Source: a virus. Taken from it: DNA of 24,926 nucleotides. The translations under genes and the position numbers were made by a program. Of this stretch, positions 3,102-19,419 are shown piece by piece. The stretch is from positions 1-24,926 of the IMG/VR virus record IMGVR_UViG_3300045135_003597. The stretch is one strand, 5' to 3'. The notes below the pieces were generated by a model. The model did no database searches. It saw nothing but the letters and a program-made list of their open reading frames with translations, and had not been told where the DNA came from. Positions within the stretch are counted from its first letter, which is position 1. Every line of letters starts with the position of its first letter.

Positions 3102-4672
3102 GGGTCAAACCTGTAGCCGGAAACCTCGACATAACGGCCCGCGGGGCGGACCGAGATCGCACTGGGGCGCATAAGCTCTTGGGCCTGCAAAATGGCCTCA
3201 TCCACGCTGAGCGGCACCGGACAGCCGGGCGCGCGCTTGCGCCACCATTCCGACGCCTTCTGGCGTGCATAGCCCTGATGCTCGATGCAGACCCATTCGC
3301 TGTAGGACTTCAGCCCGCAGCTATAGGTGACCTTGAGCGAGGGCTGCCCGCCCAGCTTGTCGTGGCGGCTATAGGACACACCGTGGACCGGCAGCCATTG
3401 GACCTTTGGCGACAGGACGGGAAGTGTGGCCGCCGTGGGGGCGATTTTGACCTCCCGGGCCGGAAAGACGTAACCGCAGTCCGGGCATTCCGTAGCCGAC
3501 AGTGCAATGATGCTGTCGCATTCCGGGCAGAGCTTGGTCGGGGACTCGCCGCTACCGGGCTCACCGGGTCGCCGGGGCCGCACCAGATCGATCGGCCCGT
3601 GGCGGCGGACATTGCCGGCAAAATCGAGTACGAGGCAGTTTTCTTTGTCCGGTGCGAGACGCGTCCCACGGCCCACCATCTGCACATAGAGCCCTGCGGA
3701 TTTGGTGGGGCGCAGGAGCGCGATCAGATCGACGGCCGGGGCGTTGAAGCCGGTGGTCAGCACGCCCATCGAGGCCAGCGCACGGATTTCGCCGCGCTTG
3801 AAGGCGGCAATGATCGCGTCCCGCTCCTCCTCCGGCGTATCCCCGAAGATGGTACGGCAGATGATCCCCTGCCGCCCGAATTCCTCGGCCACATGACGCG
3901 CGTGCTCAACGCCCGAACAGAAAGCCAGCCAAGATTTCCGGTCGCGGCTATGCGCGATGATCTCGGTGACTGCGGCCCGCGTGATGCCCTCCTTGTCTAC
4001 CGCAGCCGCCAGATCGCGCTGGATGAAGTCGCCGGCGCGGGTGCCGACCTTCGAGACATCGAGCCGCGTGGCAGGCTGTTTCGACACGAGCGGGCTCAGA
4101 TAGCCAGCGTCGATCAGATCGCGGACCGGGGCCTCATAGGCGATGTCGGTGAAGAGCGCGTTCTTACCCTCGTGCAACATGCCGCTATCGACCCGGAATG
4201 GTGTCGCGGTCAGGCCAATCACCTTGAGTGCCGGATTAATGCGGGTCAGACTATCCAGAAACCGGCGGTACATCGTGCTGGAATTGCCAGGGATGAGATG
4301 GGCCTCATCGATCAGCACGAGATCCGTGTGGCCGATTTCCTGCGCGCGGCGGTGGATAGACTGGATGCCTGCGAAAAGGATCCGGGCCTGTGCCTCGCGC
4401 TTGCCGAGGCCCGCCGAGTAGATGCCCGCTGGCGCATCAGGCCAGAGGCCGATCATCTCGGCATGGTTCTGGGCGATCAACTCTCGCACATGGGTCACGA
4501 TCAGGATGCGCTGGTCGGGCCAAGCCTTCAGCACGCCCTCGATGAAGGCTGCCATGACGAGGGACTTGCCCCCGGCGGTCGGGATAACCACCAGCGGGTT
4601 GCCTTTGTTCTTCTGGAAATAGCCGTAGATCGCGGTGATCGCGGCCTGTTGATAGGGGCGCAGGGTCAGCAT
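2936..4672 (-). CDS. Phage SF2 DEAH-box helicase with zinc ribbon
   Basis: A 578-residue superfamily 2 helicase (phage DEAD/DEAH-box, UvsW/RecG-like role possible). Visible motifs are Walker A PTAGGKS (31-37), DEAH (122-125), TATP (155-158) and motif VI QMVGRGTR (331-338). After the helicase core, a four-cysteine zinc ribbon (Cys382, 385, 396, 399) is followed by a region near 440-500 that may bind DNA. The last 55 residues are rich in Ala, Thr and Pro and are encoded in the stretch shared out of frame with the DUF6511 gene. The ATG at 4672 overlaps the 3' end of the nuclease gene by a few bases. It probably remodels forks or recombination intermediates with the nuclease and annealing proteins next to it. 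Confidence 0.85.
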   Translation of the reverse strand: MLTLRPYQQAAITAIYGYFQKNKGNPLVVIPTAGGKSLVMAAFIEGVLKAWPDQRILIVTHVRELIAQNHAEMIGLWPDAPAGIYSAGLGKREAQARILFAGIQSIHRRAQEIGHTDLVLIDEAHLIPGNSSTMYRRFLDSLTRINPALKVIGLTATPFRVDSGMLHEGKNALFTDIAYEAPVRDLIDAGYLSPLVSKQPATRLDVSKVGTRAGDFIQRDLAAAVDKEGITRAAVTEIIAHSRDRKSWLAFCSGVEHARHVAEEFGRQGIICRTIFGDTPEEERDAIIAAFKRGEIRALASMGVLTTGFNAPAVDLIALLRPTKSAGLYVQMVGRGTRLAPDKENCLVLDFAGNVRRHGPIDLVRPRRPGEPGSGESPTKLCPECDSIIALSATECPDCGYVFPAREVKIAPTAATLPVLSPKVQWLPVHGVSYSRHDKLGGQPSLKVTYSCGLKSYSEWVCIEHQGYARQKASEWWRKRAPGCPVPLSVDEAILQAQELMRPSAISVRPAGRYVEVSGYRFDPCAKVPPASAPFATGNLVGLAGSTHTIGSPTRGATPAASTSAVAPAKTSVTGGRA

Positions 4673-5610
4673 GGCGCAGCCTCCGTTGTGCGGGCGTCGT
4701 TTGCCCAGGTCGAGCCATCGGCCATGCGGTAGGTGACGACATCGTCGCCCGCGTCGATGACATCGCCCGGAACGAGATCGGGGATGAAGAGATGGCGGAT
4801 GCAGGCCGCACGCTGCTCGGCGGGCGCAAGCATCCGGTCATGACGGGCACAGTGCCAACCGCCTTCAATTGGGGTGGAATGCAAACAGGATCGGCACGTC
4901 ACAGCCGCCCCACCCCCCTCATGGCAGGCGCCATGGTGATCGCAGAACCGGCATTCAAACCAGGCCGGGTCCGCGCTGATCCGCGCGGGCGGATGTTGGG
5001 CGAAGATGATGCGCCCGGCCTTCTCCAGCAGGCGCTCGGCCATGGCGCTGTCGGCCTCGATGCGCTCGATATGAAGCGCGTCGGTGTCTTTGCAGACCGC
5101 CACATACATCGCGCGGGTGATCCCCGTCAGATGCATGTAGATCAGCATCTGTGCGGCGTGCTGGGGCTTGGCCTGCACGACGCCCTTGGCAGTCAGCTCA
5201 GAGAAGCTCTTGACCCCATGGGTCTTGAACTCCAGCACATGCCAGGTCTTGGGCGCCTCCAAGAGCCCAAGGGCAACGCCATCGAGCGAGCCGCCAAAGT
5301 GCCCGCCATGGGCCTCGACACGGAACTGTCGGCCAGTTTCCGGATCGACCTCTAGCACCGTGGCACCAGTGGCGCGCAGATTGCGCACGAGGCGATCCTC
5401 TTCCAGCTGGCCGGTCTCAAAGAGGCGCAGCAGGCGACCAGAATGGCGCGCGGGCGTGACCCAGCGGAAATCATACCAGAGCGCCCGGGCGCAGGACTTG
5501 CCGATGATCGAGGCGCCGAGGTGATCGCGGAACCCATCGCCCTGGCAGGCCTCATAATCAGCATAGATCGCCGTCAGCGTCGGCGTGGGGGCTTCGGGAA
5601 GCTCTGCCAT
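4666..5610 (-). CDS. Cas4/RecB-like PD-(D/E)XK nuclease
   Basis: A 314-residue exonuclease-type protein. The core is GSLDG (Asp110), EFKTH (Glu127 and Lys129) and the QAKPQHAAQ helix (Gln150/154), the usual PD-(D/E)XK signature of RecB/Cas4 nucleases. Cys40 together with Cys220, Cys223 and Cys229 is arranged as in Cas4/AddB-type iron-sulfur nucleases. A second cluster (Cys239, Cys242, Cys254) sits in a C-terminal extension and may bind zinc. The start could be GTG 5613 or ATG 5610; the ATG is preferred because it shares one base with the upstream stop (TGATG). It lies between an unknown small gene and the helicase, and likely resects DNA ends for the annealing ATPase. Confidence 0.8.
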   Translation of the reverse strand: MAELPEAPTPTLTAIYADYEACQGDGFRDHLGASIIGKSCARALWYDFRWVTPARHSGRLLRLFETGQLEEDRLVRNLRATGATVLEVDPETGRQFRVEAHGGHFGGSLDGVALGLLEAPKTWHVLEFKTHGVKSFSELTAKGVVQAKPQHAAQMLIYMHLTGITRAMYVAVCKDTDALHIERIEADSAMAERLLEKAGRIIFAQHPPARISADPAWFECRFCDHHGACHEGGGAAVTCRSCLHSTPIEGGWHCARHDRMLAPAEQRAACIRHLFIPDLVPGDVIDAGDDVVTYRMADGSTWANDARTTEAAPC

Positions 5611-5972
5611 CACAGACCCTCCCGTTCGCTGCGGGCCTGCGCCTCGGTCAGAATGTCGGTCCAGGTCTCGGGGTCATGGCGTTCGCGCAGGATGCCGATC
5701 AGCGCGTCCTTGAGTTTTTCGCGGCGACGACGGCCGGTGCCTTGGGCCAGCAGTTCCGCCCGTTCGCGGCTCAGATGCCGAAGCGCCGTGCGCGCCCGGT
5801 GGAACCAGTCCGGATCGATCGGCCTCGCCCCGCGTTGGCGGGCCAGATCGGCCGTCGCGATCTGCGTGCGGATCTTGGCGATGGCATCGTCGAGTTCGAT
5901 CAGCCGCCGCTGGTCTTCAGGCAAGCCGGGGCTGTTCACGGCCACAGGGGCCGCGTTGGTCATGTCAGTCAT
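5610..5972 (-). CDS. Unknown phage protein, helical, basic
   Basis: A 120-residue protein I do not recognise. It is predicted mostly alpha-helical, with heptad-like stretches around residues 18-45 and a basic run GRRRREKLKD near 80-90, followed by a helix ending in EREGL. The ATG at 5972 has GAGGAAA about 7 bases upstream; an in-frame ATG three codons later is possible. Its stop overlaps the start of the Cas4-like nuclease, so it is likely made with it and could be a small accessory of the recombination module. No domain supports a specific role. Confidence 0.7.
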   Translation of the reverse strand: MTDMTNAAPVAVNSPGLPEDQRRLIELDDAIAKIRTQIATADLARQRGARPIDPDWFHRARTALRHLSRERAELLAQGTGRRRREKLKDALIGILRERHDPETWTDILTEAQARSEREGL

Positions 5973-6036
5973 GGGAATTTCCTCAGATGGGGTGATGCGC
6001 TGCCCCGTCAGTCAAGGCGCAGGGCAGCGCGAAGGC

Positions 6037-6537
6037 TCAGCCCTTCTTGTTCCAGGGCGCTGAGGCCATTTTCGGCGGCACCGAAGAACCGGCCGGGTCA
6101 GACACGGGCTTCGCCGGACGGGCGGCTGGGGCCGAACCACGCTCGGGCGGCAGATAGGCAATCGCGTTGCTCTCGCCGTAGCCGTTCTTCGGCGGCCGTA
6201 TCTTCACCTGGATCGTCATCGGGATCAGGTGCAGTTCTTCGCTGTCGCTGACATGCATCCGGCCCGTGGCATGGCAGATGGCCGACAGCGTGCGCTGTGC
6301 GATCTCCACCGTGGTCGGGTTCGGGTTCACCAGGTTCAGCTGGTCGAAGATCTTCCGGCCTTTCTGCTCCCCTTCGAGAATATCGATCATCAGCCATAGA
6401 AACTGGCCCATGCCGTTCTTAGTAACGCGCATCTCGCTTTCCACGATCTGGGCGCGGTATTTGCCTGCGGGCAGAAGCTCGTAGGCGGTGGTGGGTTCGA
6501 CGCTGGTCGCGTCAAAAGAGGTGTCGAAACGTGCCAT
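6037..6537 (-). CDS. DUF669 phage single-stranded DNA-binding-like protein
   Basis: A 166-residue DUF669 protein, a family seen in phage replication modules and thought to act like single-stranded DNA-binding protein. It shows the typical opening (ARFDTSFDA, then LPAGKYRAQI), the W-L-x-I-D-I-L-E-G-E-x-K-G-R-K-x-F-D-x-L-N-L strand pair at about 48-69, and a Pro/Ala-rich flexible tail ending in APWNKKG. A GAAAGGAT ribosome site precedes the ATG. It sits directly downstream of the Sak4-like ATPase gene, the pairing expected if the ATPase anneals strands covered by this protein. Confidence 0.8.
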   Translation of the reverse strand: MARFDTSFDATSVEPTTAYELLPAGKYRAQIVESEMRVTKNGMGQFLWLMIDILEGEQKGRKIFDQLNLVNPNPTTVEIAQRTLSAICHATGRMHVSDSEELHLIPMTIQVKIRPPKNGYGESNAIAYLPPERGSAPAARPAKPVSDPAGSSVPPKMASAPWNKKG

Positions 6538-6558
6538 GGTTTTATCCTTTCAAGGCAA

Positions 6559-7305
6559 TCATTCAGGTTGGGGCATGGCTGCGAGGAACTCCGACCACTC
6601 GAGCGGCAGGGTGTCCGGCAGGCCGTAACGGTTCTTGGCGAGGAAGGCGGGGCGCTCTTCGGTGTGCATGACGCGGGCACCGGACCCGAGCGCCCGGGTT
6701 ACCTTCTTGTTGAAGCCGACATCGGATTTGGCGACCGAGATCTGGTAGTTGGCGAAGAGCACGACATCTGAGTGTTCCTGCAACAGCGCCGAGGCGCGGG
6801 TCTGCAGCTTAATCACATAGCGGTCGTAGGGCTCGTGCTCGGGGCTGTCGAAACGCTTGATGTCGGTATGGGCGATCTGGATGACCACCATGCCTTTCTG
6901 ATCCCGAAGCGCGTTCAGCTTGTCGAGATATTCCCGCCAGACATTCAGCGCTTCCGCAAAGCCCTTGCCAAAGCCCGGCGCCTCGATGGACGCCCAGCCG
7001 TTACGCTTACAGGTCTCAGCCCAAATGAGTGGCTCCAGCCAATCGATACTGTCGATCACAACGGTGCCAAAATCGTGGTCCTCGGTCAGCAGTGCATCGA
7101 GGGCTTCAGCCACCTCCGTGTAGCTCGTCGCCAGCGGAAAATGCGGCACTTGAAGCTTGCCGAGGCCATCCTCGGTCATGATGAACACCGGCCGATCCGC
7201 AGCGGCGGCAAAGGTGGATTTGCCCACCCCGGCCACGCCGTGGATCAGAATGCGCGGTGGCGTCAGCGCCGATGTGGTGCGAAGGGATGCGAGGGAAATC
7301 GCCAT
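6559..7305 (-). CDS. RecA-like phage ATPase, Sak4/AAA_24 type
   Basis: A 248-residue P-loop ATPase. Walker A is GVAGVGKS (23-30) and Walker B is TVVIDSID (81-88). The short RecA-like core with a QIAHTD strand (motif near 143-148) and no LexA-stimulating loops resembles the phage nucleotide-binding AAA_24/Sak4 group, which promotes single-strand annealing with an SSB partner. The ATG at 7305 overlaps the upstream stop as ATGA. Its neighbours, DUF669 and a Cas4-like nuclease, support a role in recombination-dependent replication or repair of the element. Distinguishing Sak4 from other RecA-fold phage ATPases would need a profile search. Confidence 0.75.
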   Translation of the reverse strand: MAISLASLRTTSALTPPRILIHGVAGVGKSTFAAAADRPVFIMTEDGLGKLQVPHFPLATSYTEVAEALDALLTEDHDFGTVVIDSIDWLEPLIWAETCKRNGWASIEAPGFGKGFAEALNVWREYLDKLNALRDQKGMVVIQIAHTDIKRFDSPEHEPYDRYVIKLQTRASALLQEHSDVVLFANYQISVAKSDVGFNKKVTRALGSGARVMHTEERPAFLAKNRYGLPDTLPLEWSEFLAAMPQPE

Positions 7306-7508
7306 CAGAACTCTCCCATGTCAGGTTTGTCGTTGGAAATCGTCGCCGGGATGGGTGCCACTTCGCCGGTGACAGCCGCGTAGAGCGCATCGAGCCGGTC
7401 GGCTTCGGCGAGGTGTTCGAGGGCCTGACGCCGCATAGCGCGCCGCATTTCATCGATCCGTGTGAGATCGGTCGTCGGATTGCGAGAGTTTTGAGAAAGC
7501 GTGGTCAT
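7305..7508 (-). CDS. Small unknown phage protein (67 aa)
   Basis: A 67-residue helical protein of unknown function, with an RRAMRRQALEHLAEADRLDAL helix-rich centre. The ATG at 7508 is preferred over a longer upstream start because it overlaps the stop of the preceding gene as ATGA, the arrangement used throughout this operon; its own stop overlaps the Sak4-like start in the same way. Cysteine-containing codons upstream of this ATG belong to the preceding gene's reading region and are not expected to be translated in this frame. Confidence 0.6.
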   Translation of the reverse strand: MTTLSQNSRNPTTDLTRIDEMRRAMRRQALEHLAEADRLDALYAAVTGEVAPIPATISNDKPDMGEF

Positions 7509-7999
7509 TGCACAGCCTCCCCAACGAGCGCAGTACCGCCCTTGGCCAGAATGGCATCTAGACAATCACCGAAGCTCCAGCCCGGGTTTTCCTCCCAAAA
7601 CTGATCGGCCTGCCGCAGGGCGTTGCGCCATTCCCGCAGCGCATGTTGGTCATTGGCAATCTGGACCCGGCGGATGGCGATCGCACGTTCAAATTCGGCG
7701 CGGGACAATTGGCGCGTGGCCACCAGCGTCGTTCCGTCAATATCCATGGCCACCGCAGCCGGGAGTTGGAACGGTAAAGCCGCTTGGTCCGGCGCCGAAG
7801 ACTGCTCGGCCTTGAGCTTGAGGCGGCGGGCACGGGTGTCGATCCGCGCGACAACACCATCGATACCAGCGAGATACTGTCCATCCGCATCGATATCGTC
7901 CCAGCGGTTTACCGCAGCTTGCCGCTTGTTGATCGCGCGCCCCGCGATCACTTCGCCGACGATCTCGCCGACAACATCATTCAGTCGCATATGTCCCAT
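7505..7999 (-). CDS. Unknown phage early protein (164 aa)
   Basis: A 164-residue protein I do not recognise. The N-terminal 45 residues (RLNDVVGEIVGEVIAGRAINKRQAAVNRWDDIDADG) look like a short helical dimerisation segment, and the C-terminal half is helical with Trp-rich NPGWSFGDCLDAIL. The ATG at 7999 has a textbook AGGAGG six bases upstream and overlaps the end of the preceding gene by 23 bases; longer in-frame starts lack a ribosome site. Its stop overlaps the next gene's ATG. Role unknown; position in the early operon suggests a DNA-metabolism accessory. Confidence 0.65.
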   Translation of the reverse strand: MGHMRLNDVVGEIVGEVIAGRAINKRQAAVNRWDDIDADGQYLAGIDGVVARIDTRARRLKLKAEQSSAPDQAALPFQLPAAVAMDIDGTTLVATRQLSRAEFERAIAIRRVQIANDQHALREWRNALRQADQFWEENPGWSFGDCLDAILAKGGTALVGEAVQ

Positions 8000-8819
8000 T
8001 GTGGACCTCCTGTTCGTAAAGGGTGGTGAAGTCGGTGAGCCAGGCCGCTGCACGCCGCATGGGCGCGATTTCCACGGCGTGGCGTGAGGCTGGTGGAATG
8101 CGGCGCACTGCCTCCGCCGGGCTTGGCTGCTCGTCGATGCGTTCGACGATCTCGACCAAGCGCTCGTGAATGGCGCGATCCTCTGGGGTTCCAAACACCG
8201 CGATCTGGCGGGCCCGCATCTCTGGCGTCAGCGGTGGCGGGCGGTTTTCTTCGAGTTGCCGGACGCTTTCCTGAATGCGCTGCAGCCGGTCGAGAGAGCG
8301 TTGCAGACGATCCTCGGCCGCACGGCGGACCGCTGACCGCGTTGGTTCTTCCCCACGCTCGAGCTTTTGATCCAACGTGCGGCGTACAATGCCAGGGTCG
8401 GCAGCTTCGGCGTCACGGATCAGGCGCGCATCATGAATTTGGTCGCGGCGGAGCCCGAGATCAGTCAGCGAAGGGATGTTGGTCTCTGCAACATCCCGTG
8501 GAAGCTGGCCACCATGCCGATGAACATCCCCCCGCGCCTGCGCTGCATCATATTCATCTGCGAGGCGCCGTTTGGCAGCGGCTTCGATTTCCAGTGCATC
8601 AGCCTGTGCACGGTGGGCTGCCGCAATCAGATCATCATGCGCGGACTTGGCACGGCTAAGACGGGCAGCCCGTTTTGCAACGTCATAGGCAAGACCGGCA
8701 GCTTCACGGGCCTCGAGCACTTCTGCCGCCGTTTTGGCGCTGGCCAGCATCGTGGCAGCACGATCGATAAGACCCGGCAGATCAGAGACACCTGCCGAAA
8801 TGGGAGCAAGCACCGTCAT
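7977..8819 (-). CDS. Unknown phage protein with long helical N-terminus, ParB-like in places
   Basis: A 280-residue, highly charged, mostly helical protein. Residues about 15-95 are Ala/Arg/Glu-rich and probably coiled coil. The middle part (an LTDLGLRRDQIHDARLIRDAE segment) resembles the helical DNA-binding part of some ParB-like or KorB-like phage proteins; the C-terminal third is again charged and helical. I cannot assign a function. The ATG at 8819 overlaps the upstream stop as ATGA; a longer start near 8900 lies inside the preceding gene and has no ribosome site. Confidence 0.65.
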   Translation of the reverse strand: MTVLAPISAGVSDLPGLIDRAATMLASAKTAAEVLEAREAAGLAYDVAKRAARLSRAKSAHDDLIAAAHRAQADALEIEAAAKRRLADEYDAAQARGDVHRHGGQLPRDVAETNIPSLTDLGLRRDQIHDARLIRDAEAADPGIVRRTLDQKLERGEEPTRSAVRRAAEDRLQRSLDRLQRIQESVRQLEENRPPPLTPEMRARQIAVFGTPEDRAIHERLVEIVERIDEQPSPAEAVRRIPPASRHAVEIAPMRRAAAWLTDFTTLYEQEVHNGTYATE

Positions 8820-9304
8820 TTCCGCGCCTCCGCCGGTTCGATCGAGACCTTGAGCGCGCCGACCTTCACCGTGCGAGCAGGTTCGAAACCGTCTCGCCAC
8901 GCTTTGGGCAAGGCGTTGAATTTACGCTCCGAGACCGACAGCTTGGTGTCGATAAACTCAGACGGGTCCTCGCCGCTGGCCGCTATATTCGCTGCGATCT
9001 GGGTGAGTTTCTCCTGATCCCAATCAACGCGCTTGGGCAGATCGGCCACGACGGCGTAATCGCCGTCCATAAGGCGAACCATGCCCGTGTCCTTGGCGCA
9101 GGCGCGGCGCGCCTCGGCGGCGCGGGTCGCGTAGCGCACTTCAAGCGCTGCGCTGAACTGCGCTGTTGCGGCCTTCAGCTGCGTGCTCGCGTGCACCAAC
9201 TCGCTCTGAAGGGCGGCCAGTAATTCCACAGGCATCTGGGCCAGATCGCCGGTGGACATATTGAGCATGTCATCCACGCTCGGGGTGTTGTCGGGGAAAG
9301 CCAT
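8816..9304 (-). CDS. Unknown phage early protein (162 aa)
   Basis: A 162-residue protein not recognised. The N-terminal 70 residues are helical (VELLAALQSELVHASTQL); the centre has an ADLPKRVDWDQEKL segment and the end an SERKFNALPKAW motif followed by beta strands. These last features recur in alphaproteobacterial phage proteins of unknown role, but that is recollection and not a search. GAAAGGAG lies six bases upstream of the ATG at 9304, so this gene has its own good ribosome site and need not be coupled to its upstream neighbour. The stop overlaps the next gene's ATG. Confidence 0.7.
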   Translation of the reverse strand: MAFPDNTPSVDDMLNMSTGDLAQMPVELLAALQSELVHASTQLKAATAQFSAALEVRYATRAAEARRACAKDTGMVRLMDGDYAVVADLPKRVDWDQEKLTQIAANIAASGEDPSEFIDTKLSVSERKFNALPKAWRDGFEPARTVKVGALKVSIEPAEARK

Positions 9305-9327
9305 AGGGGGCTCCTTTCAAAAAGACG

Positions 9328-9633
9328 TCAGTGGGCTGCGATCAGCCGTTCGGGGATGGACGGTGTGGGAGGTTTCGGCCGGGCGATGGCGCGGTACTCA
9401 AAGAGATCCGGGCCAAGGCGTTCCTGGACGAGATGCACCAGCTGTTGCTCGGAGGCCCGCCAGGCGGCATCCGCGATGCCGCGCAACGTGGCCTGCTGAG
9501 ACGGTGTCAGGCGCGACATGAGCGAGCCGGTATCAACGGCCAAAAACCCACGGTGGTAGCTGACACTTGCACCTGCGTCTGCGAGCGAGACCCAAGCGTA
9601 AAAGCCAATGTCATCGCGGATCTGCGACGCCAT
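9328..9633 (-). CDS. Unknown phage early protein (101 aa)
   Basis: A 101-residue protein of unknown function with a helical core (LTPSQQATLRGIADAAWRAS) and a Pro-rich end. Translation could start at GTG 9636 or ATG 9633; the ATG shares a base with the upstream stop (TGATG), the same arrangement as at the Cas4-like nuclease, so it is preferred. It is the second gene of the leftward operon, immediately after the small HTH gene. Confidence 0.6.
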   Translation of the reverse strand: MASQIRDDIGFYAWVSLADAGASVSYHRGFLAVDTGSLMSRLTPSQQATLRGIADAAWRASEQQLVHLVQERLGPDLFEYRAIARPKPPTPSIPERLIAAH

Positions 9634-9842
9634 CACGACACCTGTGCACTTTGGGAGGCATCGCCTCGGCGCAAGGCCGCCGCCTCAAAGGTCATGATGT
9701 CCTCGAGCCGGTAGATGACCCGCCCGCCGAGTTTGAGATAATCGGGGCCTTCGCCGGTCCAGCGCCACCGTTCCAGTGTGCGATGAGAGATCGCCCAGCG
9801 TCGGGCTAGCTCCTTTTGGGTGAGGCAGAGTTTTGACTGCAT
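9633..9842 (-). CDS. Small helix-turn-helix protein, excisionase/AlpA-like
   Basis: A 69-residue DNA-binding protein. LTQKELARRWAISHRTLERW (7-26) is a MerR/excisionase-type helix-turn-helix, followed by the wing-like GPDYLKLGGRVIYRLEDI. Proteins of this type act as excisionases (recombination directionality factors) or as small activators in phages and integrative elements. It is the first gene of the leftward early operon. Its ribosome site lies within a 9-bp inverted repeat just upstream, suggesting autoregulation or translational control. Whether it directs excision by the serine recombinase 3 kb away or only regulates transcription cannot be told from sequence. Confidence 0.75.
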   Translation of the reverse strand: MQSKLCLTQKELARRWAISHRTLERWRWTGEGPDYLKLGGRVIYRLEDIMTFEAAALRRGDASQSAQVS

Positions 9843-9873: not shown

Positions 9874-9888
9874 ATGCGAAACACCGAT

Positions 9889-10018
9889 GTGGGATGTCGT
9901 CGGGATCGCGGTGGGATGCAGTGCCGGATCGAGACGCTGAGAAATTTCAACGCTCTAAAATGCAGTGGGGGATGGGCATCCGGCACCCATCCCCCAGCAG
10001 ATCCCACACCCATCCCAC
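9889..10018 (-). promoter_or_regulatory. GTGGGATG repeats and GC-rich hairpin upstream of the early operon
   Basis: GTGGGATG occurs at 9889-9896 and 9911-9918 and inverted (CATCCCAC) at 10011-10018, with a near copy at 10000-10007. Between them TGGGGGATGGG (9966-9976) and CCCATCCCCCA (9986-9996) make an 11-bp perfect inverted repeat with a 9-base loop and no T-run. The region is the only non-coding stretch upstream of the 10-kb leftward operon, so these are likely operator or activator sites; no convincing sigma70 promoter was found. Confidence 0.45.
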
Positions 10019-10040: not shown

Positions 10041-10724
10041 TTAATCGAAGCGCAATCGGTAGTTCCCGCGTCCGTCAGATTGAATCAATTCGCGCCACTC
10101 GGGCTTTGACTTGAAGACATCGACCATCTTCAAGCTGCGCGATCCGGCTGCCGTCAGAAGGGTCTTACCGTTTTGCCAAGGCTGACCGGATTCTGCTGCA
10201 GCATGGAGCGCCTGCACAACATCGGCCTGAATGGCACCAAGCTGAAAGCAAAACCCGCGGCTGCGCACTTCTCGATAGCCAACAGTGTGGATGAACCCTT
10301 GCTCTGGCGTCTGCCCGTCGCCCGTGTGAAATCCCGATTTGATTTCATAGCGATCGCGCTCATGACGTCGCATCAAAAGATCCCCAATAACAACGTATTG
10401 CGGCGCATGCGTTTCTGGAAACGCCGCGTAACCAAAACGATCATGGCGGAACTCATTCAGATGAGCCTCTCCACAGCGGAAGAGGTGGAACACATCGCAG
10501 GCATGCAGATCAAGAAGGCCGCTGAACACGCGTTCTTCATAGGGCACCCGGAACCGCGCCCCATCGATGTCAGCATCATAATCGCCAAACTCTAGGAGTT
10601 GATTGAAGACCCGGATGGAGAGCCGAACGTGGTTGTTTTCTGCGAGGTAGATCAGATCGTCTTCCTCGATGGACCAACGCCGGAGGATCTCTGGTAGCGA
10701 ATAATACTCCTTCTCAATCCGCAT
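10041..10724 (-). CDS. Unknown protein divergent from the repressor, putatively SOS-controlled
   Basis: A 227-residue protein with no function I can name. The N-terminus (YYSLPEILRRWSIEEDDLIYLAE) resembles a small helical domain of the MerR/HTH kind; the middle is beta-rich with His and Cys; the end (160-227) has an ADVVQALHAA helix, then GKTLL and a VFKSKPEWRELI...GNYRLRF segment that looks like a winged helix. A GGAGG ribosome site precedes the ATG. It lies back to back with the repressor, and a GTTC-N7-GTTC LexA box overlaps its predicted promoter. That position suggests an inducible gene such as an antirepressor or switch protein, but this is inference. Confidence 0.7.
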   Translation of the reverse strand: MRIEKEYYSLPEILRRWSIEEDDLIYLAENNHVRLSIRVFNQLLEFGDYDADIDGARFRVPYEERVFSGLLDLHACDVFHLFRCGEAHLNEFRHDRFGYAAFPETHAPQYVVIGDLLMRRHERDRYEIKSGFHTGDGQTPEQGFIHTVGYREVRSRGFCFQLGAIQADVVQALHAAAESGQPWQNGKTLLTAAGSRSLKMVDVFKSKPEWRELIQSDGRGNYRLRFD

Positions 10725-10750: not shown

Positions 10751-10765
10751 GTTCCATTATTGTTC
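10751..10765. promoter_or_regulatory. SOS (LexA) box, GTTC-N7-GTTC
   Basis: GTTC at 10751-10754 and GTTC at 10762-10765 with exactly 7 bases between match the direct-repeat LexA site known from Rhodobacter, Caulobacter and Rhizobium. It lies 27 bases upstream of the leftward gene's ATG, covers that gene's predicted -10, and ends 8 bases before the repressor promoter's -35. The match is seen; LexA control is inferred. Confidence 0.75.
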
Positions 10766-10790
10766 TATCGCCTTGACGATCCCATAGCAA
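10762..10790 (-). promoter_or_regulatory. Candidate leftward promoter of the unknown gene
   Basis: Reading leftward, TTGCTA (10785-10790) and TAGAAC (10762-10767) are 17 bases apart; each matches 4 of 6 consensus positions. The -10 overlaps one half of the SOS box, so bound LexA would block it. Confidence 0.4.
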
Positions 10791-10801
10791 TCATGTCTTA
10801 T
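10773..10801 (+). promoter_or_regulatory. Candidate rightward promoter of the S24 repressor
   Basis: TTGACG (10773-10778) is followed after 17 bases by TCTTAT (10796-10801). It faces the leftward promoter, overlapping it, so the two probably interfere. A 7-bp inverted repeat, CTTATCC (10797-10803) and GGATAAG (10826-10832), brackets the start region and may be a repressor operator. Confidence 0.45.
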
Positions 10802-10832
10802 CCTATTATATCCACAAGCGGATGGGGATAAG

Positions 10833-11510
10833 ATGACCTTGCATCATAGTTTGGCCAACCGACTGCAGGCGCGCGCTGACCAGCTTGGGCTCAGCCCCGC
10901 CCATGTTGCGGAGATGGCCGGGGTCAATCGCTCCTTTGTCTACGACATCCTGCGGGGCCGCTCCTCTCGGCCTGGTCTGGATCGGTTGATGGAGGTCGCG
11001 CGCGTCCTCAAGGTCGAAGTAGATTGGCTGATCCACGGCATCGGGGACATCGAGGGACCATCCCCTTTCTTGGAAAACCCCGACGAAACCTTCGTGCCGA
11101 TCGCGCAAGCCCCCGTGCGGCCCTCAATGGGCGGCGGATCCGTGGCACTTGAGAACTATGATGAACCAGGCCGTGCTTATCACTTCCGGAAGTCTTGGAT
11201 CAAACAAGGTCTAAAGGCTTCGCCCTCCCAACTACGCATCATGAAGGTCGAGGGCGACAGTATGGAACCCACGCTCTTTGACGGCGACACCGTGCTCGTC
11301 GACATGGACCGTAAGGCCCCAAACCCGCCTGGGATATTTGTTCTCGATGACGGCATGGGCTTGGTTGCCAAGCGTTTACAGCACGTCCCTAACAGCGATC
11401 CGCCCGCCGTTCGTGTGATCTCAGACAACAAACACTATCCGGAGTATGAGCGCACGGCAGATGAGATTGTCATCATCGGCCGTATTCGATGGTTTGCCCG
11501 GGAGATTTGA
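10833..11510 (+). CDS. Phage S24-family repressor (LexA/CI-like)
   Basis: A 225-residue repressor. The N-terminal helix-turn-helix spans about 8-65 (LANRLQARADQLGLS...VAEMAGVNRSFVYDIL). The C-terminal half is an S24 peptidase fold with the catalytic Ser in EGDSMEPTL (Ser143) and Lys in LVAKRL (Lys180), so RecA-stimulated self-cleavage is expected. A typical Ala-Gly cleavage pair is not seen; the linker near 98-103 is MGGG-like, so the cleavage point is unclear. GGGGATAAG just before the ATG may serve as ribosome site and operator. It probably holds the element silent by controlling the leftward operon and its own promoter, and its induction ties to the adjacent SOS box. Confidence 0.9.
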   Translation: MTLHHSLANRLQARADQLGLSPAHVAEMAGVNRSFVYDILRGRSSRPGLDRLMEVARVLKVEVDWLIHGIGDIEGPSPFLENPDETFVPIAQAPVRPSMGGGSVALENYDEPGRAYHFRKSWIKQGLKASPSQLRIMKVEGDSMEPTLFDGDTVLVDMDRKAPNPPGIFVLDDGMGLVAKRLQHVPNSDPPAVRVISDNKHYPEYERTADEIVIIGRIRWFAREI

Positions 11511-11511
11511 G

Positions 11512-12243
11512 GTGATTGAATTCCGTTCCCTTGCTGATGACGAGCCATCCCTCAGCTATTCGCCATTGCTCAGAGGCTTCCTCAGAACCTTTGCCTATGT
11601 TGCTGAACACGGTGGCATCGGCCTCACGGCCTCCAAAGGCTTCAAACGTGATTTTGTACATTGGGCGGCGCGAGAGTTCGACTGGCCCGGCCACACCGAG
11701 GCGGACCTCTTTGCCGTGAACAAGGTTCTGAACGAGCAAGACTTCATGCCGCTAGTAGATATTCACTTCTTGCTGACAACTCTCAAAATGGGGCGGCATT
11801 ACAAAGGGCAGTTCAAACTGACCAAGGCAGGCACGGAAGTCAGCCAGCATCCGGGACGGCTCTTCGGGATCATAACGCCCTTCTATCTTTTTGAGACCGA
11901 CCACAGCATCTGGAGCCGGTCTCCAGACACCGAGATCATGTTGAACTGGAATGTTTTCTTGAACGTGATCAACGTAGAGGCTGAAAACGGCGCCCTTGGC
12001 GCCGACCTGCGTCGAACCTTCTACGGTGACCCGACGCCAGAGCATTTTCCGCACTATGATGTCGTGATGGCCAATCTTTACACGCAAGTCTTGCGGCCCT
12101 TGATTTGGACTGGCCTCCTTCAAGAAACACGCCCTGCAAAATCGTTCCGTTCGCAAGAGAGTGTCTTTACGAAGACACCGCTTTGGAAAGCATCCCTCAA
12201 GTTGGAAACCGATTCCCAGGTCAAGCGCGCCACGCGGCATTGA
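11512..12243 (+). CDS. Unknown protein downstream of the repressor (243 aa)
   Basis: A 243-residue protein I do not recognise. It is rich in aromatic residues (HWAAREFDWPG near 49-60; FYLFETDHSIWSR near 123-136) and mixes helix and strand, with no membrane segment or nuclease motif visible. Its GTG start at 11512 lies one base past the repressor stop and has GGGAG a few bases upstream, so the two genes are almost certainly co-transcribed; longer ATG starts would overlap the repressor. Co-expression with a repressor suggests a maintenance or immunity function for the dormant element, but nothing in the sequence proves it. Confidence 0.7.
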   Translation: MIEFRSLADDEPSLSYSPLLRGFLRTFAYVAEHGGIGLTASKGFKRDFVHWAAREFDWPGHTEADLFAVNKVLNEQDFMPLVDIHFLLTTLKMGRHYKGQFKLTKAGTEVSQHPGRLFGIITPFYLFETDHSIWSRSPDTEIMLNWNVFLNVINVEAENGALGADLRRTFYGDPTPEHFPHYDVVMANLYTQVLRPLIWTGLLQETRPAKSFRSQESVFTKTPLWKASLKLETDSQVKRATRH

Positions 12244-12369
12244 TGCCCTTCAGCTTCGATCCCTAGCACATACTCTCCACCCCGCAGATCTTCACCAACC
12301 GATTGTTTTGGCTTGATTATCAGGAGCTGGCGAGGCCCAAGTGGGTTCACCAACCCGAAAGGCGCTCCC

Positions 12370-12597
12370 ATGCTTGATGAACGTGAAACCCCGATTTCGG
12401 GGCCCAATCCCCTATGCCCTGAACGCATGTCGCCTCAAGCCCGACGACAAGAGATCAGCCGCCTCTTGGCCACGGCCGTGGTGCGCCTCATGGGACACGA
12501 TCGCGATGATCTATCCAAGGATACTGGAGATAGTTCGCTACACTTCCTGCGCAAACAGAGCGGTACTGCAACTCCAACTCAGAGGAGATCTGCATGA
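12370..12597 (+). CDS. Small protein of the DUF2924/recombinase module
   Basis: A 75-residue protein starting MLDERETPISGPNPLCPER, followed by a helix (RRQEISRLLATAVVRLM). Short genes of this form precede DUF2924 and serine recombinase genes in other alphaproteobacterial elements, as I recall. No function is known. The ATG at 12370 is preferred over an upstream start at 12313 because it begins the conserved part and has an AAAGG nearby. Its stop overlaps the DUF2924 ATG as ATGA. A small GGGTT/AACCC hairpin (12343-12356) lies just upstream. Confidence 0.65.
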   Translation: MLDERETPISGPNPLCPERMSPQARRQEISRLLATAVVRLMGHDRDDLSKDTGDSSLHFLRKQSGTATPTQRRSA

Positions 12598-13049
12598 CCA
12601 CAGAAGACCCCATCCTGGCACGCTTGGCTGCCTTGAAGCTCATGTCTGTCAATGGCCTGAAGGCCGAATGGCAGACGCTCTTCGGGGCCCCTGCCCCGAA
12701 CAACAGCCGCAACTTCTTGGAAAGCCGCCTGGCTTATCGCATCCAAGAACTGACCTATGGCGGCCCGGACAAGCAAACGCGCCGCCTGCTGGACCTGCTG
12801 GCCGACGAAGTCGAGGGCACGCTGACGCGCAAGGCCCAGATTGCTGACCCTCGAAACCCCGTGGTGGGCACCAAGCTCATCCGTGAATGGGATGGCACTG
12901 CGCATACGGTCACCGTTTTGAAAGACGGCTTCGATTGGGGTGGCCAGCGCTACAAGTCGCTCTCGGCTGTTGCCCGGGCCATCACTGGCACCCGCTGGAA
13001 CGGTTATCGCTTCTTTGGGCTGCGTGAGCGGAAGCGAGGTGAAGCATGA
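12594..13049 (+). CDS. DUF2924 protein
   Basis: A 151-residue DUF2924 protein. The diagnostic C-terminal block is present: GTKLIREWDG, then HTVTVLKDGFDWGGQRYKSL, then A-R-A-I-T-G-T-R-W-N-G. The N-terminal half is helical (LAALKLMSVNGLKAEWQTLFG). These proteins occur next to large serine recombinases in alphaproteobacterial elements; their role is not established, though a DNA-binding accessory to recombination is plausible. It overlaps its upstream neighbour as ATGA and the recombinase by four bases, so all three are likely made together. Confidence 0.85.
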   Translation: MTTEDPILARLAALKLMSVNGLKAEWQTLFGAPAPNNSRNFLESRLAYRIQELTYGGPDKQTRRLLDLLADEVEGTLTRKAQIADPRNPVVGTKLIREWDGTAHTVTVLKDGFDWGGQRYKSLSAVARAITGTRWNGYRFFGLRERKRGEA

Positions 13050-14368
13050 AGGACCTGTCCGCAAAACCCGCCCGCCGCCTCCGGTGCGCCATCTACACAC
13101 GCAAATCCAGCGAAGAAGGTCTCGAGCAGGAGTTCAACTCGCTTCATGCGCAGCGCGAGGCCTGCGAGGCCTATATCGCCAGCCAGAAATCCGAAGGCTG
13201 GGCCTTGGTACGTGACCAATATGATGATGGCGGCATTTCAGGTGGGACATTGGAGCGCCCCGGGCTGAAGCAGTTGCTGGCCGATATCGAGGACGGCCTC
13301 GTGGATGTGGTCGTCGTCTACAAAATCGATCGTCTGTCGCGCTCACTGATGGATTTTTCTAAGCTGGTAGAGGTCTTCGACCGGAACGGTGTGACCTTCG
13401 TCTCGGTGACGCAGTCTTTCAACACGACCACCTCCATGGGGCGGTTGACGCTGAACATCCTCTTGTCCTTCGCCCAGTTCGAACGCGAAGTTACGGCCGA
13501 GCGCATTCGCGACAAGGTAAAGGCCTCGCGCATGAAAGGCCTGTGGATGGGCGGCCCTGTCCCCTTTGGCTATGACGTGATCAACCGTAAGCTTGTTATC
13601 AACGAAGACGAAGCCGCTCGGGTTCGAATGATCTTTGAGCGTTTCGTCGAAGTGGGCTCAGCGACGCTCCTCGCACGCGAGTTGCGCCAGAACGGGATCC
13701 GCAACAAGCAAGGGAACTTAATCGACAAGGGCTACTTGTACCGCTTGTTGAATAACTGCGTCTATCGTGGTGAAGCCGTTCACAAAGGCAAGTCCTACCC
13801 CGGGGAGCACGAGGCCATTATCGACGCGCGGCTCTGGGAACAGGTGCATGACATTATGGGGGAAAGTCCCCGCAAGCGGGCGAACAACAGTCGGACGCAA
13901 ACGCCTGCGCTGCTCAAGGGATTGCTCTTCACCGCCACCGGCGCCGCAATGACCCCCTCGAGCACCAAGAAGGGCACACGTCGGTATCGCTACTACGTCT
14001 CTATGGACCTTCTGAAAAACCGCGAAACGCCCGAATATGGCATCCCGCGGCGCCTGCCCGCCAACACCGCTGAGGCCGCCGTCATCTCAGAAATCCGCCG
14101 TGTTCTGCGCACGCCGGAAACCACAGCGCAGGTTATTGCTGCGCTGGACCGCGACAACATCTCTGAGAAGGATGCAATCGAAGCGCTCCAGCACTTCCCC
14201 AATCTTTGGGATCAGCTCTTTCCAGGCGAGCAGGCCCGCATCATTCAGCTACTTATCAGGCGCGTGACCGTGACCGCTGAAGGCCTTATCATCGACATGC
14301 GCACCGACGGCATTGCGGGCGTCATGCGGGACATGATGGTTCCGCGGCAGCTGGAGGCCGCAGAGTGA
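13046..14368 (+). CDS. Large serine recombinase (integrase) of the element
   Basis: A 440-residue serine recombinase that should integrate and excise the element. The resolvase domain (about 12-160) has Arg19 and nucleophile Ser21 in YTRKSS, Asp95-Arg96 in IDRLSR and the AQFEREVTAERIRDK helix. A recombinase domain (PF07508 type) follows at about 165-280. The zinc-ribbon position (about 290-320, LLKGLLFTATGAAMTPSSTKKGTRRYRYYVS split by the reader at will) lacks the usual cysteines, so this subfamily may fold without zinc. It is shorter than phiC31-class enzymes. It overlaps DUF2924 at its start and the HTH-like gene at its end. Confidence 0.9.
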   Translation: MKDLSAKPARRLRCAIYTRKSSEEGLEQEFNSLHAQREACEAYIASQKSEGWALVRDQYDDGGISGGTLERPGLKQLLADIEDGLVDVVVVYKIDRLSRSLMDFSKLVEVFDRNGVTFVSVTQSFNTTTSMGRLTLNILLSFAQFEREVTAERIRDKVKASRMKGLWMGGPVPFGYDVINRKLVINEDEAARVRMIFERFVEVGSATLLARELRQNGIRNKQGNLIDKGYLYRLLNNCVYRGEAVHKGKSYPGEHEAIIDARLWEQVHDIMGESPRKRANNSRTQTPALLKGLLFTATGAAMTPSSTKKGTRRYRYYVSMDLLKNRETPEYGIPRRLPANTAEAAVISEIRRVLRTPETTAQVIAALDRDNISEKDAIEALQHFPNLWDQLFPGEQARIIQLLIRRVTVTAEGLIIDMRTDGIAGVMRDMMVPRQLEAAE

Positions 14369-14757
14369 TGGCTGCGCCCGACACCATTCAGGTCTTCGTT
14401 CCTCTTAAGGTGCGCAAAAAGAACGGGCGGCCCAAAATCCTGCCGCCCACTGATTACTTGCCCAGCGAGGACAACACCCAAGATCCGCATATCCTGCGCG
14501 CCATTGGCCGCGCCTGGGCCTGGCGGCGGCGGATGGAAGCCGGTGAATTCGGAACAGTGCGCGACCTGGCGATCGCCGTGAACCTCGCCGAGCGTCATGT
14601 CAGCAGACAGCTGCGCTTGGCCTACCTCGCGCCTCAGGTCTTGAAACGCCTAGTCTACAAGCGCGATGTCACTGCCATCACCGTCATGCAATTCACCGAA
14701 TGTGCGCTCCTGTCTTGGAAAGTGCAGGAGGTCTGGGTGTTCGGGGAGGTACGATGA
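14368..14757 (+). CDS. Small HTH-like protein following the recombinase
   Basis: A 129-residue protein starting AAPDTIQVFVPLKVRKKNGRP, rich in basic residues, with a helical centre (HILRAIGRAWAWRRRMEAGE, 41-60) and a likely helix-turn-helix at about 63-95 (FGTVRDLAIAVNLAERHVSR). Genes of this form regularly follow the DUF2924-recombinase pair. It could bind att DNA or steer recombination direction; that is inference. The ATG at 14368 shares a base with the recombinase stop (TGATG); GTG 14365 is the alternative start. It is the last gene of the element. Confidence 0.65.
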   Translation: MAAPDTIQVFVPLKVRKKNGRPKILPPTDYLPSEDNTQDPHILRAIGRAWAWRRRMEAGEFGTVRDLAIAVNLAERHVSRQLRLAYLAPQVLKRLVYKRDVTAITVMQFTECALLSWKVQEVWVFGEVR

Positions 14758-15859: not shown

Positions 15860-17041
15860 ATGTCTGGAGATTTCAGGCCGCTCGCAGGTGTTCGCGTTGT
15901 CGAAATGAGCCATATGATCATGGGCCCATCTTGTGGGATGTTCCTTGGATATCTTGGTGCAGAAGTCATCAAGGTAGAGCCGCCGGAAGGAGACAAGACC
16001 CGTCACCTAACCGGCATGGGCCGACCAATGTTTCCGCTGTTCAATCGTGGCAAGAAGTCCGTGGCTATCGACGTCCGAACTGAAGCTGGCCGAGAAGCCT
16101 TGTTGCGCTTGCTGGAAACAGCGGATGTGTTCGTGGAGAATTTCCGTGACGCGTCGTTGGTCAAAGCGGGTGTGGATGCAGCAACTCTAAGGAAAAAATT
16201 CCCAAAATTGATTTTTGCTGCAGGGAAAGGCTTTCTCTCTGGCCCCTACCAGAACCGCACTGCTTTGGATGAAGTGGTGCAGATGATGACTGGCCTTGCG
16301 TACATGACTGGTCCGACGGGGCGCCCGCTCCGAGTGGGATCTTCTGCCAATGATATCATGGGCGGCTTGTTCGCTGCTCTCGCGGTTGTCGCGGCCCTTT
16401 TGGAACGGAAAGACACAGGGACGGGCCGCGAAATCCGCGTGGGCCTATTCGAAAACTGCCTTCTATTGGTCGCGCAGCACATGGTGCAATTCGAGCTGGA
16501 GGGAAAGAATCCGCCGCCGATGCCGGAACGTGAGTTCTCCTGGCCGGTCTATGACATCTTCACTGATCGGAACGGGAAACAGATCTTTGTCGGTGCCGTG
16601 ACTGAGGGACAATGGGTTTCGATTTGCCGCTTGCTCGGTCTGGACGACTTGATCTCTGATCCCCGCCTGCAAACCCGGATGGACCAGATCAATGCCCGCG
16701 ACTGGACGATACCCCTCGTTGGCGCGAAGATTGCGGAGCGGTCTTCGGAAGAATTGGCCCCCGAGTTCGAAGCTGCGGGTTTGCCGTTTTCTCCGATCGC
16801 CAAACCTTGCGACATGTATCAAGACCCTCACGTGATGCGGCCTGGCGGTTTGGCGATTTCCAACTACGGCGAGCATCAATTCCGCGCGCCGGGGTTGCCG
16901 TTTGAAATCGACGGAGAAATGCTACCGAGTGGTGGCGATTTACCTTCCGTCGGACAAGATTCTGAGAAAATCCTGGCAGATCTTGGGTATAGCTTGAGCG
17001 ATCTGGCCGCGATCACGGGGCGTCCCGTGGAGGCTGCGTGA
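15860..17041 (+). CDS. CaiB/BaiF family III CoA-transferase
   Basis: A 393-residue family III CoA-transferase, the normal length. It moves CoA between an acyl-CoA donor and a carboxylic acid. The opening LAGVRVVEMSHMIMGPSCGMFLGYLGAEVIKVEPPEGD is the usual Rossmann-like start; Asp165 in SANDIMGGLF is at the place of the catalytic Asp; RKDTGTGREIRVGLFE follows. The ATG at 15860 is chosen because AAGGAG lies five bases upstream; longer starts run through the LysR gene. The stop shares a base with the HMG-CoA lyase start (TGATG), so the two formed an operon: acid activation to a CoA ester followed by C-C cleavage, as in C5/C6 branched dicarboxylate breakdown. The exact substrate is unknown. Confidence 0.9.
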   Translation: MSGDFRPLAGVRVVEMSHMIMGPSCGMFLGYLGAEVIKVEPPEGDKTRHLTGMGRPMFPLFNRGKKSVAIDVRTEAGREALLRLLETADVFVENFRDASLVKAGVDAATLRKKFPKLIFAAGKGFLSGPYQNRTALDEVVQMMTGLAYMTGPTGRPLRVGSSANDIMGGLFAALAVVAALLERKDTGTGREIRVGLFENCLLLVAQHMVQFELEGKNPPPMPEREFSWPVYDIFTDRNGKQIFVGAVTEGQWVSICRLLGLDDLISDPRLQTRMDQINARDWTIPLVGAKIAERSSEELAPEFEAAGLPFSPIAKPCDMYQDPHVMRPGGLAISNYGEHQFRAPGLPFEIDGEMLPSGGDLPSVGQDSEKILADLGYSLSDLAAITGRPVEAA

Positions 17042-17211
17042 TGCGAGCCCTTGATCTTTATCCGGCCAACCGCGTTGTACTTCGCGAAGTAGGTTTGCGA
17101 GACGGCCTGCAGCTTACCAAGACCTTTCCGGATACCCTCGCAAAAATTGCATGGATGGACGCCGAGCATAAAGCAGGTGTGCGGCATTTCGAAGTCGGGT
17201 CGTTTCTCCCG
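17041..17211 (+). pseudogene. HMG-CoA lyase-family gene, 3'-truncated
   Basis: The first 57 codons encode an intact HMGL-like start: VVLREVGLRDGLQ holds the metal-binding Asp and conserved Arg, followed by HFEVGSFLP. After codon 57 (17211) the reading frame enters the antisense of virB4 and loses all similarity; a stop comes at 17538. A full enzyme is near 300 residues, so the TIM barrel is lost and the protein cannot be active. The gene is coupled to the CoA-transferase before it. The break coincides with the virB4 truncation, marking a rearrangement joint. Confidence 0.8.
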
Positions 17212-17801
17212 AGGAACCCGACCAGTTCGCCGGAGGCTGCTGAGAGAATGCGGGGTTTGAGTTCCGCCAGGCCGGAGGTGAAAACCCCGACTGCCTCTTT
17301 AAGCCGCCGGACTCGTTTCGCGGTCTCTTCCTTGAACCGTTCCGGCGCAGGACTGTTCACAAAGCCAAGGAAACTCTTCGGGGGCGGGCGGTGGATGATC
17401 GTCAGCGTCAGGGTCTTGTCGCGCAGTCCCGCCGATCCCAGCCTCAGACGCCAGGCCTCATCCACCGCCGCCGCAAAGCCGTCGCCCCGAACCGGGAGCA
17501 AGTCCGGGGTGATCGACTTCGAGACCTTGTGCACATAGTAGCTGAACTTGGGGCCCAGCTGCGCGATGATGCGGGCGAAGAGGGCGGTCACCTTGTCGAG
17601 ATAGGCGTCGTCCGTGGTGTAGCTGTTCACGCCGCCGAGGCGGACGCACTGGAAGAGTTCGTTGACCCGGGTCCGGACCGTGTGGTCATCGACGAGGCTG
17701 ACATAGGGCAGCATATGCGCGAGGCGCTTCTCGCGCGCATACCAGTCCGGCAGCAGGGTGCGGGTATCGTAGGTCTCATCCAGGGCTTTGCTATGGCGCA
17801 T
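17212..17801 (-). pseudogene. virB4: virB4/trbE ATPase gene, 3'-truncated
   Basis: About 198 residues match the N-terminal part of VirB4/CagE/TrbE ATPases (LPYVSLVDDHTVRTRVNELFQCVRLGGVNSY and the SYYVHKVSKSITPDLLP segment), ending at ELVGFLG. The sequence then runs into the HMG-CoA lyase gene read backwards, with a stop at 17058. The normal protein is about 800 residues and its Walker A and B motifs lie in the missing part, so secretion energy would be lost. The ATG at 17801 overlaps the virB3 stop region by 11 bases. Confidence 0.85.
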
Positions 17802-18069
17802 AGCTGTCGCCCCCGTGGACGGACCGGTTCCGCGTCGGCGGCGTCTCCTGCAGCGCCGTCATCATCACGTCGATGAAGCGCGGGTCCCAGTCCGCCGCCT
17901 TCCAGAGCACCGGATAGAGCACCGCCGCCACAACGAGAACGATCATGTGCTGCACCCAGACGAAGAGCAGCACCGAGCCGAAGAGCCAGACCATGGCGTA
18001 CATGATCGGCAGGCCGAGGAGCTTTGGCGGGCGCACCAGGCCCAGGAAGAGGGGGGATCGCTCTGCCAC
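17791..18069 (-). CDS. virB3: VirB3/TrbD inner-membrane T4SS protein
   Basis: A 92-residue VirB3-family protein: a short polar start (ERSPLFLGLVRPPKLLG), two hydrophobic segments at about 19-36 and 40-55 (IMYAMVWLFGSVLLFVWV and MIVLVVAAVLYPVLW), and a charged tail. VirB3 sits in the inner membrane and works with VirB4; fusion of the two is common. The gene lies between virB2 and virB4, in the standard order, and overlaps virB4. With virB4 truncated it is probably non-functional here. Confidence 0.85.
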   Translation of the reverse strand: MAERSPLFLGLVRPPKLLGLPIMYAMVWLFGSVLLFVWVQHMIVLVVAAVLYPVLWKAADWDPRFIDVMMTALQETPPTRNRSVHGGDSYAP

Positions 18070-18081
18070 GTTGCCGACCCC

Positions 18082-18381
18082 TTACGGCGTACCACCACCA
18101 AAGACGGCGGCCACGATCGTCGGCGCGGCTGCGACACCGGCGATGCCCACCAGCACCCAGAGCGCCTGGCGCAGGTCGATGATGTTGAAGAACCAGCTCA
18201 GAAAGACGCCGAGCACGGCGAGAGTGGCGATGACAACACCGAGCGGGCCGGTCAGCGCGTCGACAATCCCCTGCAACAGGCTCTGGATCGGCGAGAGGTC
18301 GATGCTTTGTGCGAGCGCCGGCTCGGCGAGGACGACAAGGAATGTGGCAAGCGCGCCAAGGGTTGCGACGGGGTTTTTCAT
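18082..18381 (-). CDS. virB2: VirB2/TrbC pilin
   Basis: A 99-residue pilin precursor. It has a signal peptide (LGALATFLVVLAEPALA, cleavage near 24), then a mature part with two hydrophobic helices (GVVIATLAVLGVFLSWFF and ALWVLVGIAGVAAAPTIVAAVF) joined by a short polar loop, as in VirB2/TrbC. These subunits build the conjugative pilus. It lies between the transglycosylase and virB3 in normal order. The product could still be made but would have no complete machine. Confidence 0.85.
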   Translation of the reverse strand: MKNPVATLGALATFLVVLAEPALAQSIDLSPIQSLLQGIVDALTGPLGVVIATLAVLGVFLSWFFNIIDLRQALWVLVGIAGVAAAPTIVAAVFGGGTP

Positions 18382-18386
18382 AACAT

Positions 18387-19121: not shown

Positions 19122-19419
19122 GGGAGAAGCCGATGCCCTGCAGGAAGGAGATGACGCCGGTGACGGTCCTGATCTCGCGGATCTTGATGTCGTTGCGCGA
19201 GGTCCGGGTCCGGGCGGTGACCAGGAGTTTTTCGACGCCTTCGTCGCTGACGGCGCGCAGAATCCAGACCCCGTGCCAGTTGGGGCCCTTCTTGAAGGCG
19301 TCCTCCTTGCAGACAACTTCGACGCGATAGCCGCTGGCGACCAGATCGCGGAATCTGGGTTCGGTGACCACATTCGGGGCTTCTTTTTCTAGGTCCATCA
19401 CCCGGATCACGTTCTCCAT
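19042..19419 (-). CDS. Unknown protein at the head of the virB operon
   Basis: A 125-residue soluble protein I do not recognise, with a beta-rich centre ([28 protein letters not shown]) and basic strands ([16 protein letters not shown]). No signal or membrane segment. The start may be ATG 19419 or ATG 19398; neither has a strong ribosome site. Its end overlaps the transglycosylase. A CAA-N3-TATA-N3-TTG dyad lies 44 bases upstream of 19419, and the gene is divergent from the exported protein at 19543. As first gene of the T4SS operon it may be a regulator or effector-like protein, not shown. Confidence 0.65.

Follow-up and report, generated by a model that had tools for sequence, protein, structure and literature searches.

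A conserved host-type LexA box in the repressor switch of an alphaproteobacterial prophage family

A LexA box of the type found at the host lexA and recA genes lies within the repressor switch of a prophage, at the predicted promoter of a gene for a 227-aa protein. We consider it likely (probability about 0.82) that host LexA controls the leftward promoter from which the gene would be transcribed. The box is conserved across the family, even in two members that have no repressor in the switch, and these phages therefore probably listen directly to the host alarm. The DNA analyzed (the window) is a virus record of 24,926 bases, which contains a prophage with its early genes oriented leftward.

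The LexA box in the window, hosts, and relatives

The box (GTTCCATTATTGTTC; the minus strand reads GAACAATAATGGAAC) occupies positions 10751-10765 and is assigned to the minus strand. The sequence-only reading had placed a GTTC-N7-GTTC motif here, overlapping the -10 element of the leftward gene (TAGAAC, minus strand 10767-10762) and close to the -35 element of the repressor (TTGACG); the sequence agrees on each point, and the gap to the repressor -35 is 7 bp. Since 0.78 bare patterns are expected by chance and one was found, a single sequence is no proof of a box. It is the comparisons (with homologs, hosts, and repressor-less members), not the window alone, that make it convincing. A weight matrix was made from the host lexA and recA boxes and used to scan the window on either strand. 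The top site was 10751-10765, with a score of 19.6 bits versus 12.1 for the next best site and a host mean of 19.1. The box overlaps the predicted leftward -10, so that GTTC-N7-GTTC stands at a predicted promoter, as in the LexA regulon. By its sequence, this is a putative LexA-type operator of the 227-aa gene.

The host sample included 30 lexA and 30 recA genes from genomes carrying the element. GAAC-N7-GAAC was found upstream of lexA, on the same strand, in all 30 cases. All 30 recA genes had GAAC-N7-(G/A)AAC, again on the same strand, with the AAAC half in two of them; SOS promoters of the hosts themselves thus admit a half-site of this form. AAAC half-sites were also seen in some second lexA boxes of the hosts.

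The sequence-only reading had named absence of the box from orthologous elements as a result that would refute it. This check was carried out, and passed, on 83 distinct promoters of 227-aa gene homologs, with shuffled promoters as a control. GAAC-N7-(G/A)AAC was present in 78 of the 83, compared with 0.5% of the shuffled promoters. The box has the same orientation as the 227-aa gene and lies approximately 41 bases ahead of the start codon. The first half-site is intact in every promoter (83/83), and the half-sites are fixed while most of the spacer is variable, positions 8-11 varying freely. GAAC-N7-GAAC (29 promoters) characterizes the window's own group; GAAC-N7-AAAC (49 promoters) characterizes a second large group, the largest subclade, where it is probably a weaker operator. 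The remaining five promoters carry other changes in the second half. Deviant second halves include GAAC-N7-GAAT (L003 and L011), CAAC (L036 and L037), and AGAC (L065 and L066). In L003 and L011 a single base of the second half is changed; in G001, which is the host of L003, the recA box is also of the AAAC type.

Conservation extends to remote relatives. An intact box was found in G071, G238, and G346, as well as in a Shinella plasmid copy (L028, 39.6% identity), and the AAAC form was found in G009. In each of these five a divergent S24 gene stands beside the box.

Gene layout, divergent promoters, and the 227-aa protein

In the window, the genes for the integrase, a DUF2924 protein, and the S24 repressor are divergent from the 227-aa gene and the leftward early genes. 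The 227-aa gene (10041-10724, minus strand) encodes a protein without a known family, a candidate SOS-induced switch regulator. Downstream of it, the early operon (445-9636, minus strand) includes genes for a phrog_2480 protein, Sak4, SSB, a Cas4-type exonuclease, helicase, primase, and others; its first gene (9633-9842, minus strand) encodes an excisionase/AlpA-like HTH_17 protein of 69 aa. On the plus strand, the gene for an S24 (CI/LexA-like) phage repressor with HTH_3 and Peptidase_S24 domains (10833-11510) is followed by a lysogeny module (11446-14757) of a 265-aa ORF without a name, DUF2924, a serine integrase (13046-14368), and a 130-aa recombinase-associated ORF. From near 14831 on, the genes are host-like. 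An assignment of 12594-13049 and 13046-14368 to UmuDC was dropped, as these are the DUF2924 and serine integrase genes. The absence of an HK97-type portal (PF04860) prompted us to consider a non-phage element; this was also rejected, because PHROGs identified phage structural genes (terminase, portal, major head, tape measure, and tail fiber) in a relative. Outside the prophage, at 17038-19373, a short HMG-CoA lyase-like fragment is located beside leftward ORFs resembling a truncated VirB4, other VirB parts, and an SLT transglycosylase. Of these assignments, the SLT domain is the only one confirmed; the region is probably what is left of an element for secretion or conjugation.

The leftward promoter (10762-10790, minus strand) is predicted to consist of a -35 element TTGCTA (10790-10785), a 17-bp spacer, and the -10 element TAGAAC that overlaps the box. 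The predicted repressor promoter (10773-10801, plus strand) has TTGACG at 10773-10778, a 17-bp spacer, and TCTTAT at 10796-10801. The two promoters had been described as face-to-face; this is incorrect, for they are divergent and point apart, with interleaved -35 elements. Among 81 distinct promoters, 76 have the TTG of the leftward promoter where its distance predicts it. The repressor -35 (GTCAA) is found in 79 of 81 and is missing only in L045 and L046, both of which have no repressor gene. Three ATCC/ATC units with 10-bp spacing (10790, 10800, and 10810; feature 10788-10816, no strand assigned) are kept in relatives and represent a candidate operator of the S24 repressor, the 227-aa protein, or both. 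A further element, TTATCCCC, was tried as an operator arm and dropped; it overlaps the Shine-Dalgarno region of the repressor gene, which explains its conservation without an operator.

The 227-aa protein could not be assigned to a family in Pfam, PHROG, or NCBIfam searches, and a PDB sequence search matched no solved structure. The AlphaFold2 model is confident (pLDDT 88) and predicts a helical unit at the N terminus, a beta domain in the center, and a winged-helix-like domain at the C terminus. Foldseek searches of PDB and BFVD with this model gave no match at E <= 0.001; the C-terminal fold showed a weak trend toward OmpR/PhoB winged-helix domains, below significance (E 0.05-0.7, probability up to 0.84). 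In one relative (L008:3170-3850) an in-frame stop codon was observed near residue 62. A 31%-identical homolog was found in a contig of a human fecal phage (L029, MT838658.1, 4237-4905), with no S24 gene or LexA box visible nearby. Given this homolog, the family may reach beyond the alphaproteobacteria.

Proposed mechanism and competing explanations

In the lysogen, LexA would lie over the -10/start region of the leftward promoter and block the 227-aa gene, and the S24 repressor, bound to the phased ATCC units adjoining the box, would probably act as a further lock. Upon DNA damage, LexA would be cleaved by RecA and the leftward promoter would open. The interleaving of the divergent promoters also means that leftward initiation by RNA polymerase should compete with synthesis of the repressor. 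The 227-aa protein would then act as a DNA-binding switch protein. It had been proposed as a candidate SOS-induced antirepressor or switch protein. The second designation appears very probable, because a conserved host-type LexA operator overlaps the -10 of its gene. No specific support was obtained for the first; a DNA-binding regulator is somewhat more in keeping with the fold prediction, the array, and the order of the genes. The favored reading is that of an SOS-induced DNA-binding activator. Its activator step is tentative: the protein would bind a GGGAT array 3' of its own gene and activate the early operon for recombination and replication, which is led by the HTH/excisionase gene.

This array (9888-10018, no strand assigned) consists of about eight GGGAT/ATCCC units with 11-12 bp spacing, arranged in two inverted halves, and is kept in relatives including Shinella. 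OmpR/PhoB-type domains bind direct repeats of about one helical turn, and for this reason we propose that the 227-aa protein may bind it; other candidate binders are the S24 repressor and the HTH protein. L022 and L023 agree at the start of the HTH gene but differ in the outer array units, which hints that these units belong with the 227-aa gene. It is also possible that the array is a replication origin rather than a regulator-binding site. A terminator-like GC hairpin (9966-9996, minus strand) is embedded in the array; its z scores in three members were -3.0 (the value for the window), -4.7, and -2.3. As the hairpin follows the 227-aa gene, this gene is probably a single-gene unit. The array stops at a conserved block ahead of the HTH gene, near a separate conserved GCAT element.

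The order of genes also permits another reading, in which the lytic early promoter is itself under direct co-repression by LexA. The 227-aa gene would then be no more than the leading early gene (Cro- or initiator-like), and transcription would continue past the hairpin to the HTH and replication genes. The early operon follows directly on the same strand with no leftward ORF between, direct LexA control of a phage promoter has a precedent in GIL01 (PMC4551915), and the T-run after the hairpin is weak in the window; it is stronger in L009 and L023, many relatives have no strong one, and in some it is absent. However, the gap of approximately 200 bp contains the GC hairpin and the conserved array that ends near the separate GCAT element, and we regard read-through as an unlikely, though serious, alternative to an activator acting at the array.

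Another explanation is an antirepressor under LexA control, of the Gifsy or 186 Tum type: the SOS-induced 227-aa protein would bind the S24 repressor and lift it off the DNA. The state of the repressor gives this some appeal. Self-cleavage of the repressor had been taken for granted as a first SOS input. The HTH and S24 domains and the catalytic Ser (GDSM) and Lys (VAKRL) dyad are indeed present; however, the Ala-Gly (or Cys-Gly) scissile pair is absent, and Met-Gly-Gly-Gly stands in its place in the window and in nearly all relatives. The alignment of this site is fixed by the remote relative G346, which carries Ala-Gly-Gly-Gly at the same place. With Met-Gly where Ala-Gly is usual, self-cleavage is uncertain, and a LexA box together with a repressor that has an atypical cleavage pair recalls the logic of Gifsy, whose repressors are not cleaved (PMC3121763). 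Against this, the known Gifsy antirepressors are small and encoded outside the immunity region (PMC3121763), and the predicted 227-aa fold weakly resembles a DNA binder.

The members without a repressor weigh further against an antirepressor. L045 and L046 encode relatives of the 227-aa protein (66 and 64% identity) behind perfect boxes. In their divergent slot no S24 gene was found; a small ORF, DUF2924, and the integrase come directly instead. No S24 domain was detected in the whole 40,277-base L045 record (G407), whereas four related records each have one. This record, which is possibly incomplete, carries genes for terminase, portal, major head, tape measure, and tail fiber; L046 is a 6.7-kb fragment. 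The GGGAT array is also kept in L045. The persistence of the 227-aa gene in L045 and L046 makes it unlikely that binding the S24 repressor is its only job, and we consider the antirepressor reading as a whole quite unlikely. The sole HTH_3 protein of the L045 record was examined as a substitute repressor and rejected; its gene sits in the structural region next to a HigB-like ORF, and the protein resembles a HigA antitoxin. A HigBA-like toxin-antitoxin pair was read from the sequence within the structural genes of the L045 phage (L198:6816-7408).

A bolder and rather doubtful version of the favored reading would make host LexA the true SOS sensor of the family. The Met-Gly S24 repressor would not cleave itself, the L045/L046 subclade would have dropped it, leaving an integrated tailed phage that stays lysogenic through host LexA alone, and the 227-aa protein would be a new type of SOS-induced lytic activator on the GGGAT array. 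The window, which has an S24 repressor, is not a case of lysogeny by host LexA alone of the GIL01 type. The lack of a phage-encoded SOS-sensitive repressor is so far represented only by the 40-kb L045 record and the L046 fragment; a scan of viral contigs with the L045 protein added one relative, which is truncated.

It is very improbable that the GAAC repeat is kept for a reason other than LexA, such as an operator of the S24 repressor or constraints on the -10/start region. The -10 (TAGAAC) does include the first half-site, but the second, which lies beyond the -10, is likewise conserved at a fixed spacing, and the motif is identical at host lexA and recA. The box also persists where the S24 gene is absent: L045 and L046 show that it is not maintained for the sake of the phage repressor, and this explanation was dropped. 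A chance match, for which the frequency of the bare motif might speak (one in 25 kb is expected anyway), is refuted by the comparative data (78/83) and can be given practically no weight.

Relation to known systems and distribution

The LexA motif of Caulobacter is GTTCN7GTTC (PMC12700426). The box described here is like the alphaproteobacterial LexA operator in its motif, spacing, promoter overlap, and identity with the host lexA and recA boxes; it differs in its location in a prophage switch and in that many members have one GTTT (AAAC) half-site. Phage regulators under LexA are known from the Gifsy prophages and from coliphage 186 (Tum) (PMC3121763). A LexA-type operator at a phage regulator gene, which here is recognized by sequence, would similarly tie induction to SOS. 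In contrast to Gifsy, where the gene lies outside the immunity region, the 227-aa gene is within the switch, divergent from the repressor gene and overlapping its promoter; moreover, the protein belongs to no known family, and antirepressor action is hard to reconcile with the repressor-less members.

In GIL01 of Bacillus thuringiensis, host LexA represses a phage promoter and thus directly controls lysogeny (PMC4551915). The L045/L046 subclade resembles it in that it also seems to have no SOS-sensitive repressor of its own. GIL01, however, is not integrated and uses gp7 as a partner of LexA (PMC4551915), whereas the phages studied here are integrated serine-integrase phages of alphaproteobacteria with siphovirus-like head and tail genes and, in most members, an S24 repressor. 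That repressor is similar to Lambda-type CI/S24 repressors in its N-terminal HTH_3, C-terminal S24 domain, and Ser and Lys dyad, and differs in that, in nearly all members, Met-Gly takes the place of Ala-Gly where cleavage would be expected. Another serine-recombinase prophage of a related host, phiPam-6 of Paracoccus aminophilus, is induced by mitomycin C (PMC3925955).

A literature search, within the library covered, found no paper on this prophage family or arrangement. As LexA control of phage regulators is already known, what is described here is a variant inside the repressor switch of a broadly distributed prophage family. Two side observations were made among these elements. A ParB/methyltransferase protein (L197:11674-13782) has a weak Intein_splicing match (E 6e-4) and may contain an intein. 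The element of Paradonghicola geojensis (G003:C11:234000-253200) seems to pass from the primase region to host-like genes without any structural genes and is possibly a truncated prophage.

The family offers a natural experiment: members with GAAC or AAAC half-sites, and with or without the repressor gene, would make the contributions of LexA and of the repressor separable. The arrangement would tie a phage switch directly to host LexA, and it involves a conserved protein family to which no library gives a name. In one host family, 40 of 397 sampled genomes encode a relative of the 227-aa protein, and in 29 of these 40 the match has an E value below 1e-58. If the proposed control is true, it would therefore be a common route by which DNA damage triggers the prophages of these abundant bacteria.
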